Source: Halobacteriales archaeon QS_6_64_34 (lineage in GTDB: Archaea; Halobacteriota; Halobacteria; Halobacteriales; Haloarculaceae). Taken from it: a stretch of 64,000 nucleotides of DNA. The stretch is taken from contig PXRT01000007.1 of assembly GCA_003020925.1 (NCBI GenBank), positions 11,248-75,247 of the forward strand, in the 5' to 3' direction. The notes under the pieces were generated by a model. It was not told where the DNA came from. It did not search any database and saw only the letters and a program-made list of their open reading frames with translations. This document shows, piece by piece, positions 1 through 48,864 of this stretch (the stretch's first letter is position 1; the number at the start of each line of letters is the position of its first letter). The translations under genes and the position numbers were made by a program.

Positions 1-97
1 ACAGGCCGAAGGCCGAGGAGCGCAGCGAGCCCCCCGACCGAAGCCAGCCGGGGCTTTCTGGCTGGTGACAGTCTGAATCGCCTAACTAAACACCACC
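1..97 (+). repeat. Dispersed repeat family, copy A (partial, cut by window start); ends in module tggctggtgacagtctgaatcgcctaactaaacaccacc
   Basis: Positions 2-58 are the exact reverse complement of 18453-18509 (copy B); positions 59-97 match the right flank of copies B and D in direct orientation. Confidence 0.85.
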
Positions 98-148
98 GCT
101 AGCAAGCCCGCAAGAATCATACGCCGCCGTCCCGTGTGAACGACACAC

Positions 149-898
149 ATGGACGTACACGTACAGGGCGGACCGGCCGAACCGTTTCTGGGCGCACGGA
201 ACCTCTTCTCGACGGAGTACGACCTCGACCGACCGGTGACAGTCCGTGTCCGCGAGGACCCCGACGAGCGCACGCGCGTGAGCCACAGCGGCGCCGGCCA
301 CCGGCTCACTATCTCCCGGCAGGCGGCCACGAGCGCGATGGCTCGCGAACTGGCCCTCCACGAGTTCGCCCACATGCACCACAACGAGCGGGGCCACCCC
401 TCCCACACCCAGTCGACGGAGGAGGCCATCTATCTGGCGCTGGCGGGCCACAGCGTCGAGCAGCGCAAGCTCACCCACTGCTACCAGATAGCCAACCACA
501 TGAAAGACATCTATGCCGACGACGTCTGGATGGCGCTGGTCTCGGGCGAGAAGCTGGTCGCGTTCCTGGAGGCGAGTCTCGCGGCGGCCGTTTCGGACCT
601 GCCGGGTGGCCAGCCGGGCTGGACGCAGCTGACCCCCGCCGCCGACCCCGACATCACGGCGGTCAACGCCGCCTTCGCGCTGGCGCTGGTCGAGCGCCAC
701 GACCTCGTAAGCGGGGACCACCAGCTGTACGACCTCGCCCACGCGGCCGCCCAGGACGCCGAGGGCATCGAGATGGGGGAGTTCAAGCCCTATTTCGCCG
801 ACCTCTCGCCCGACCCCGACGAGTCGGAGTTCCGGAAGGCCCTGGTCGACGTGACGAAGGCCTACGCCACCGCCGGAAGCGGGCAGGCCGCCGACTAG
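149..898 (+). CDS. Haloarchaeal conserved hypothetical protein (DUF5781-like, zincin-like HEFAH motif)
   Basis: 249-aa ORF with ALHEFAHMHH motif and acidic composition; shadow ORFs on other frames are Arg/Ser/Pro-rich. Confidence 0.75.
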   Translation: MDVHVQGGPAEPFLGARNLFSTEYDLDRPVTVRVREDPDERTRVSHSGAGHRLTISRQAATSAMARELALHEFAHMHHNERGHPSHTQSTEEAIYLALAGHSVEQRKLTHCYQIANHMKDIYADDVWMALVSGEKLVAFLEASLAAAVSDLPGGQPGWTQLTPAADPDITAVNAAFALALVERHDLVSGDHQLYDLAHAAAQDAEGIEMGEFKPYFADLSPDPDESEFRKALVDVTKAYATAGSGQAAD

Positions 899-18295: not shown

Positions 18296-18452
18296 ATAGA
18301 CAACCAAAAGTTGGTTGAATCAATCTGATTCTCGAGTTCAGTAGTCTTTGCTGTCGGTCTATCCTTAACATAATTTCTATGACAGGCTCTAGAGATGTAG
18401 ATAGTCGGAACTCTTGGCCCACAGTGTGCAATAGCATCCCTGCCAACGGCCG

Positions 18453-18665
18453 GAAAGCCCCGGCTGGCTTCGGTCGGGGGGCTCGCTGCGCTCCTCGGCC
18501 TTCGGCCTGCGGTGCTTACGTCGCCCGCCTTCCCGAAGCCAGCCACCGGGACGAAGTAAGCACTGCAACGAACGGGGTGAGTGAAGCGCGCAGCGAGTCG
18601 CAGTAGTCGAGCGGTCGGGGGCTTTCTGGCTGGTGACAGTCTACATCGCCTAACTAAACACTACC
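18453..18665 (+). repeat. Dispersed repeat family, copy B (inverted ends gaaagcccc/ggggctttc plus promoter-proximal module)
   Basis: gaaagcccc at 18453-18461 and ggggctttc at 18618-18626; interior shared with 47695-48009; right module shared with copies A and D. Confidence 0.85.
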
Positions 18666-18713: not shown

Positions 18714-18902
18714 ATGGGCGATAACGCCTCGCTGAACGATTTCCTCGGCGGCGAGTCGAGCGAGCAGTCGGAGGCGGCGACGACCTACGCCTGGGACGGG
18801 GCGGGCGCGGCGTGTGCGGCGTGTGACGAGACCGTCGAGCGCCGCTGGCAGCAGGACGGCGACCTGGTCTGTATCGAGTGCAAGGACTGGGAGCAGCCAT
18901 AG
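18714..18902 (+). CDS. Small zinc-ribbon protein
   Basis: 62 aa with CAACDE...CIECKDWEQP two-CxxC arrangement. Confidence 0.7.
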   Translation: MGDNASLNDFLGGESSEQSEAATTYAWDGAGAACAACDETVERRWQQDGDLVCIECKDWEQP

Positions 18903-47643: not shown

Positions 47644-47694
47644 ACACTACCTTGGTGGCCCAGGTGAATAACTCTCAGGCCCACGACAGGAGGC

Positions 47695-48009
47695 GGTCGG
47701 GGGGCTCGCTGCGCTCCTCGGCCTTCGGCCTGCGGTGCTTACGTCGCCCGCCTTCCCGAAGCCAGCCACCGGGAGAGCTCGCTCTCCCGAGCAGTCGGCG
47801 CACAGCGCCGACAACGCCCCTTTCAGTCCCACCCGCACTGATTGACCAACCGGCATGGGCGGGACTGAAAGGGGCCGACCGCTCGACGTATGAGGCGAAG
47901 CAAGCACTGCAACGAACGGAGTGAGTGAAGCGCGCAGCGAGTCGCAGCAGTCGAGCGGTCGGGGGCTTTCTGACTGGTGACAGTCTAAATCGCCTAACTA
48001 AACACCACC
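47695..48009 (+). repeat. Dispersed repeat family, copy D, with an approx. 100-bp internal hairpin-rich insertion
   Basis: cggtcggggggctcgctgcg...agccaccggga as copy B; ends gggggctttctgactggtgacagtctaaatcgcctaactaaacaccacc. Confidence 0.85.
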
Positions 48010-48057
48010 CGGCACCCCATCCCGTCGTTTATATCCGCCGGTGGCCAACACGCCCCT

Positions 48058-48864
48058 ATGCGGCCGGACCTGGACCCGGAACAGCTCGACCGCTACTCCC
48101 GGCACATCATCATGGACGACGTGGGGCCGGCGGGGCAGGCGGCGCTGCTCGATACCGACGTGCTCGTCGTCGGTGCGGGCGGGCTCGGGTCGCCGGTCCT
48201 GCAGTATCTCGCCGCCGCCGGTGTCGGCCGGCTCGGCATCGTCGACGACGACCGCGTCGAGCGCTCTAACCTCCAGCGCCAGATTATCCACGCCGACAGC
48301 GACGTGGGCCGGCCGAAAGTCGAGAGCGCCCGCGAGTTCGTCACCGACCTGAACCCCGACGTAACCGTCGACACCCACGAACTGCGCCTCGCGGCCGGCA
48401 ACGCCGCCGACCTCGTGGGCGACTACGACATCGTCGTCGACGCGTCGGACAACTTCGCCACCAGATTTCTGGTCAACGACGCCTGCACGCTGGCCGGGGT
48501 CCCGTTCTCACACGGCGCCGTCTTCCGGTTCGAGGGGCAGGTGACCACGTTCACCGGCGAGGGCCCTTGCTACCGGTGTCTGTTCCCGAAGGCTCCGCCG
48601 GCCGGTACCGTACCCGACTGCTCGACGGCCGGCGTGCTCGGGGTCCTCCCGGGGACTATCGGCTGTCTGCAGGCTACCGAGGTCTGTAAGCTCGCGATGG
48701 ACTACGGCGAGTCACTCGACGGTCGGCTGCTGGCGTTCGACGCCGGCTCGATGTCAGTCGACGAGGTCCCTATCGCGCCGAACCCGGACTGTCCGGTGTG
48801 TGGCGACGACCCCGCTCTCACCAGCGTGGCCGACGCGAGCTACGACGGGCGCTGTGAGCTGTAG
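48058..48864 (+). CDS. HesA/MoeB/ThiF family (UbaA-like E1) protein
   Basis: RYSRHIIMDDVGPAGQAALLDTDVLVVGAGGLGSPVLQYLAAAGVGRLGIVDDD; CYRCLFP; CPVCGDD. Confidence 0.93.
   Translation: MRPDLDPEQLDRYSRHIIMDDVGPAGQAALLDTDVLVVGAGGLGSPVLQYLAAAGVGRLGIVDDDRVERSNLQRQIIHADSDVGRPKVESAREFVTDLNPDVTVDTHELRLAAGNAADLVGDYDIVVDASDNFATRFLVNDACTLAGVPFSHGAVFRFEGQVTTFTGEGPCYRCLFPKAPPAGTVPDCSTAGVLGVLPGTIGCLQATEVCKLAMDYGESLDGRLLAFDAGSMSVDEVPIAPNPDCPVCGDDPALTSVADASYDGRCEL

Follow-up and report, generated by a model that had tools for sequence, protein, structure and literature searches.

Upstream of ubaA, a 33-nt module ends at position 48009, 48 nt before the start codon at 48058. The module occurs two more times in the window (i.e. 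the whole stretch of 64,000 nucleotides that was analysed), against a chance expectation of 0.00 for the three copies. In copy B (18633-18665) it again lies 48 nt ahead of an ATG (18714), and in copy A (65-97) the distance to the ATG at 149 is 51 nt. An earlier note on this DNA had pointed out this near-constant spacing ahead of three unrelated genes and a TATA-like TTTATAT at 48028-48034. The coordinates were reproduced, the measured distances were indeed alike, and the downstream products, UbaA and the DUF5781 and DUF7573 proteins, are unrelated. The module is a genuine sequence repeat, but it does not stand free: it makes up the right-hand end of a longer element. The features are collected in Table 1.

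Table 1. Features at ubaA and at the two other copies of the element in the window
Feature	Position	Strand	Remarks
MITE copy A, part inside window	1..97	+	whole element at G000:C7:11107-11344 (L022)
Target duplication of copy A, right copy, 8 bp	98..105	+	L022
DUF5781 gene, 3' of copy A	149..898	+	
MITE copy B, without left end	18451..18665	+	L023
DUF7573 gene, 3' of copy B	18714..18902	+	
MITE copy D, without left end	47694..48009	+	repeats common with copy B; end comparison; internal palindromic modules
Right-end module of MITE copy D	47977..48009	+	closes with terminal inverted repeat AACTAAACACCACC
TATA box of host promoter (TTTATAT)	48028..48034	+	begins 18 nt outside MITE copy D; kept in element-free congeners
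-10 WW element (AA)	48047..48048	+	flank profile at +38/39; motif from PMC4983044
ubaA, SAMP-activating enzyme E1 (NF047750), 268 aa	48058..48864	+	

Copy A starts ahead of the window and is bordered by the duplication GTTAGCAA/GCTAGCAA, with one mismatch. Copy D gave a strong palindromic RNA fold (z -5.6), which is due to its palindromic modules. A known RNA family was considered for the module and rejected, as Rfam matches over the window were tRNAs only.

A MITE with the module at its right end

The haloarchaeal assembly analysed (G000) comprises 2.2 Mb in 17 contigs and is 80% complete, with gaps within many copies of the element. In the whole assembly, the 33-nt module was found in 56 copies at up to 3 mismatches, whereas the reversed-pattern control gave 0; a left end, GGTAGTGTTTAGTTTAGTAGAAAACGCGGAAGAGAG, was found in 55 copies. 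When all copies were compared together with their flanks, the module proved to be the right-hand end of a small, non-coding and non-autonomous transposon (MITE). Its ends (left, GGTAGTGTTTAGTTTAG; right, GGTGGTGTTTAGTTAGG) carry imperfect terminal inverted repeats, GGTRGTGTTTAGTT, which are alike for about 14 bp. Among 41 complete elements, 8-bp direct repeats at the borders were exact in 22 and had one mismatch in 9 (together 31 of 41). Complete elements measure 86-302 bp, mostly 180-300 bp, and contain no transposase gene; at about 300 bp or less, they are too short for a gene of about 211 codons.

Relationship to the archaeal IS6 family

Among relatives, the IS6-type transposase domain PF13610 is common, and several of the insertion sequences in question, which belong to other haloarchaea, measure 697 bp and have the ends GGTAGTGTTTAGTTTGG and GGCGGTGTTTAGTTAAG and 8-bp duplications. 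The terminal inverted repeats of the MITE agree with this parent type, GGNNGTGTTTAGTT, and the PF13610 proteins bear the archaeal signature E--F---K-R and W---F. Judged by its ends and duplication, the MITE appears to belong with this 697-bp group (IS6-697) of the archaeal IS6 family. The only trace of PF13610 in G000 itself is a broken remnant (L115, G000:C5:30584-30976) with a stop codon and without recognisable ends, so that we deduce the helper transposase from the agreement in ends and duplication; intact IS6-type transposases are present in the relatives, and the 80% completeness of the assembly has to be borne in mind. A parent of the IS1595/ISH4 type, guessed from the 8-bp duplication, was discarded: PF12762 was without match in G000, and the ends match PF13610 elements.

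The archaeal insertion sequences described for the IS6 family (clade A of IS6 in ISfinder; clades a-d of Harmer and Hall) share with the elements studied here ends that begin with GG..GTGTT(T/C)AG, an 8-bp duplication and a PF13610 transposase that is about 211-219 aa long and bears the same signatures. MITEHarch3 is an IS6-family MITE and would be a close counterpart of the present one. A promoter target preference of the archaeal IS6 family was not found in the available excerpts of two reviews (PMC7986276, PMC6807381), and according to the latter its authors came upon no experimental data on archaeal members. The MITEs and SMRs of Haloquadratum walsbyi are likewise haloarchaeal, free of a transposase gene and equipped with inverted repeats, the MITEs being moved in trans, but they are reported to target other mobile elements rather than promoters (PMC3119063). 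Correia elements and other bacterial MITEs resemble the present element in being short, non-coding, mobile and often located right upstream of genes (PMC10969869). Those bacterial elements, however, contain promoters, whereas here the promoter is the host's own and the offset is constant to within 1-2 nt.

Spacing to TATA box and start codon

Bases were counted outward from the element end in every flank, a procedure for which gene calls are unnecessary; promoters were inferred from motif plus start codon. Among 110 MITE flanks, 49 had a TATA-like tetramer at offset 17-21, compared with 2.0 expected (binomial p about 6e-55). The tetramers peaked at 18-19, with 51 against 1.0 expected, i.e. about 50-fold above background. 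As the tetramer set had been picked after the first flanks were seen, a retest was performed with the published haloarchaeal motif TTWT (PMC4983044), which was present at 17-21 in 13 of 56 right-end and 16 of 54 left-end flanks (background about 0.5 each). Start codons were enriched in the same flanks: ATG occurred at 46-50 in 29 cases versus 4.5 expected, with peak offsets of 47-49, 15 of them at right ends and 14 at left ends (2.2 expected for each). The spacing preference noticed in three copies therefore holds in a search covering all 56.

TATA boxes were faced by 25 left and 26 right ends, and the two ends differ beyond the first 14 bp or so. In the 41 complete elements, a box was present at the left end only in 17, at the right end only in 10, at both in 4 and at neither in 10, some of the latter having weak boxes by eye. 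By the simple motif, a TATA-like box was missing at the sequenced end or ends of 22 out of 69 element records, several of which have a weaker box by eye; promoter targeting is therefore a strong preference and not a rule.

The TATA-side flanks have a characteristic profile, consisting of AA at +15/16, TTTWT at +19-23, an A-rich position at +38/39 and A at +49. Haloarchaeal promoters have a BRE (CGAAA), a TATA box (TTWT) and a -10 WW element and are mostly leaderless (PMC4983044), and the flank profile is that of such a promoter. Target positions 1-8 contained at most 0.11 bit each, pointing to an insertion site that is set by the promoter and not by the duplicated bases. The idea that the transposition complex favors A/T on both sides alike was rejected, as the non-TATA side was near background (0.41 versus 0.35, a split that is partly by construction).

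The ubaA promoter in element-free relatives

In the ubaA orthologues of 26 congeners, the TATA box and the ATG lie at matching places and the element is absent. The MITE right end was not found anywhere in these 26 genomes, and among the sampled relatives it occurred in one only besides G000. The congener boxes read TTTATAT (L214), TTTATAC (L213) or CTTATAT (L215), and TTTATTT or TTTATC in many others. By this comparison, the ubaA promoter existed before the insertion. The promoters behind different MITE copies are unrelated sequences, from which it follows that the MITE does not carry promoters.

Replication in other elements and controls

Left ends of IS6-697 were found in 61 of 344 genomes of the order. 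A sample of 87 yielded 114 usable flanks of independent IS6-697 elements, of which 24 had TTWT at 17-21 (2.7 expected, p 3e-16) and 21 had ATG at 46-50 (6.2 expected). A second group, with the ends GTTCAGATAAG, includes MITEs of 215-592 bp (seven genomes). The MITEs of this group had TTWT in 11 of 40 flanks versus 0.4 expected and ATG in 15 versus 1.8 expected; for its 697-bp insertion sequences, the values were 6 of 36 versus 0.8 and 7 versus 1.8, respectively. One contig of a haloarchaeon of the same family (G134:C2, L362-L371) harbors at least 10 MITEs with GTTCAGATAAG ends, 320-536 bp in length, several of them at promoters. In two single elements, L395 (G113) and L119 (G043), TATA and ATG lie close to the expected offsets on both sides; these elements appear to be insertions between divergent promoters.

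In a small control of IS4/ISH8, IS5 and ISH3-like elements, TTWT was seen in 0 of 38 flanks, with 0.8 expected. The sister IS6 group of 743 bp, with the ends GGCACTGTCTAGTT, had TTWT in 5 of 73 flanks versus 2.3 expected (p 0.08) and ATG in 7 versus 4.4. Because the controls lack a clear peak, the strong peak is a trait of one transposase group and not of haloarchaeal IS survival in general. In the sister elements (L302-L331), the duplicated target is rich in A/T and the rise stands at +10/+11 rather than at +19; this group perhaps has another target preference. Paired ISH8-type ends (CATTCGTCTTTAGCTA) about 224 bp apart were met at G020:C4:317681-317904, G085:C1:589164-589386 and G159:C2:512139-512361, and probably mark a short MITE related to IS4/ISH8.

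Probable targeting of core promoters

The observation made on one module extends far past the window, to the whole genome. We consider it probable that the MITE, with its IS6-697 ends, is inserted beside core promoters by the transposase of that group acting in trans. The element, its target duplications, the constant offset in both orientations, the older promoter and the recurrence in further genomes are read directly from sequence. In all likelihood the insertion is directed, its position being set by the transposase rather than by later selection. Guidance by promoter-bound TBP/TFB or the initiation complex, and not by a transposase that reads the TATA DNA, appears to be the likeliest mechanism, although we would give it only about an even chance. 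The sharp offset, its occurrence in either orientation, the degenerate TATA boxes and the full promoter context would suit docking on promoter-bound factors. The transposase of the IS6-697 group, supplied in trans, would move the MITE and dock on promoter-bound TBP/TFB. The TATA box begins 18-19 nt past the element end in either orientation. For a leaderless gene, the 8-bp target duplication spans about -48 to -41 relative to the inferred start, just outside the region that TBP and TFB cover, and insertion immediately ahead of the initiation complex would spare genes.

It is possible, but in our view doubtful, that host proteins play no part and that the transposase alone recognizes a TATA-like A/T motif lying about 19 bp away from the cut; promoters would be struck since such motifs stand there in a GC-rich genome. 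Most of the flank information does sit at the TATA position, and about a third of the TATA-side MITE flanks (17 of 51) have no start codon at 46-53. The TATA-side flanks nevertheless also contain start codons as well as BRE and -10 WW signals, the TATA sequences are degenerate, and one side suffices though the complex should be symmetric, none of these points being decisive. Random insertion, with only those copies tolerated that lie just outside core promoters, is improbable. The depletion of ATG at 30-45 from the ends (8 versus 14 expected) looks as if core-promoter insertions had been lost. Selection of this kind, however, sets a lower limit and no sharp upper one, yet the ATG count is back at background past 53, and the peak was not seen for IS4, IS5, ISH3-like or sister IS6 elements of the same order. 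Hardly credible is the shared regulation proposed in the earlier note, with the module as a conserved regulatory site joining unrelated genes in one regulon: the 33 nt are strongly conserved at a near-constant distance from start codons, but they terminate an element that has target duplications, the left end, whose sequence departs after about 14 bp, stands at that position equally often, and the module is missing from the orthologous ubaA promoters of the 26 congeners and from all sampled relatives but one. The recurrence of the spacing at both ends and in other groups, together with the empty sites at ubaA, argues for directed core-promoter insertion instead. The note's other suggestion, insertion targeting to about -50, is borne out by the fixed TATA and ATG offsets at either end, the duplications, the empty sites, the other genomes and the negative controls.

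Archaeal TFB is a homologue of TFIIB and Brf1. The usual view of insertion sequences is that they insert almost at random or recognize a short DNA motif, and to our knowledge host-guided targeting of such kind is known only from eukaryotic retroelements. Ty3 of yeast and TRE5-A of Dictyostelium are targeted via TFIIIB, which is composed of TBP, Brf1 and Bdp1, and TRE5-A inserts 40-54 bp ahead of the point where the coding sequence of the mature tRNA starts (PMC5911963). Like these retroelements, which lie at a fixed short distance from a complex of the TBP/TFIIB family, the present MITE is met at a fixed promoter distance; it differs in being a DNA transposon of the DDE and IS type, unrelated to them and located at promoters of protein-coding genes, and any contact of its transposase with TBP or TFB is putative. 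Whether the IS6-697 group is a DNA transposase group that targets via the TBP/TFB complex, and so an archaeal counterpart of TBP/Brf1-guided Ty3 and TRE5-A that arose in an IS element, seems to us evenly balanced. No earlier report of such promoter-offset insertion was found in the open-access literature. The accessible portion of a large survey of IS and genes (PMC9208149) places IS often within 100 bp of genes, and a promoter offset was not found in that portion.

A fixed offset from archaeal core promoters, not clearly shared by the sister group, points to a host-guided targeting mode, a question that is testable in a simple system of TBP, TFB and a transposase of about 215 aa. Insertions of the IS6-697 type offer a natural promoter marker in archaea without TSS maps. 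Landing at a promoter offset may explain how haloarchaea harbor dozens of copies with little damage. As the insertions replace all sequence upstream of about -48, they may also free genes from upstream regulation.

Rearrangements within and between copies

The inner part of the MITE occurs in either direction between constant ends (e.g. L009 versus L010), and one copy, L019, has shrunk to 86 bp; it seems that the internal palindromic modules can be inverted or lost. Two copies, L020 (G000:C5:132834) and L038 (G000:C5:4765), have swapped target duplications, GGTCGAGC and CCGGCGAC/ACGGCGAC. The relative G007 has one intact copy (L064) with GGTCGAGC at both borders and both flanks matching. The comparison suggests an inversion of about 128 kb via recombination between copies and an older insertion shared by the two genomes.
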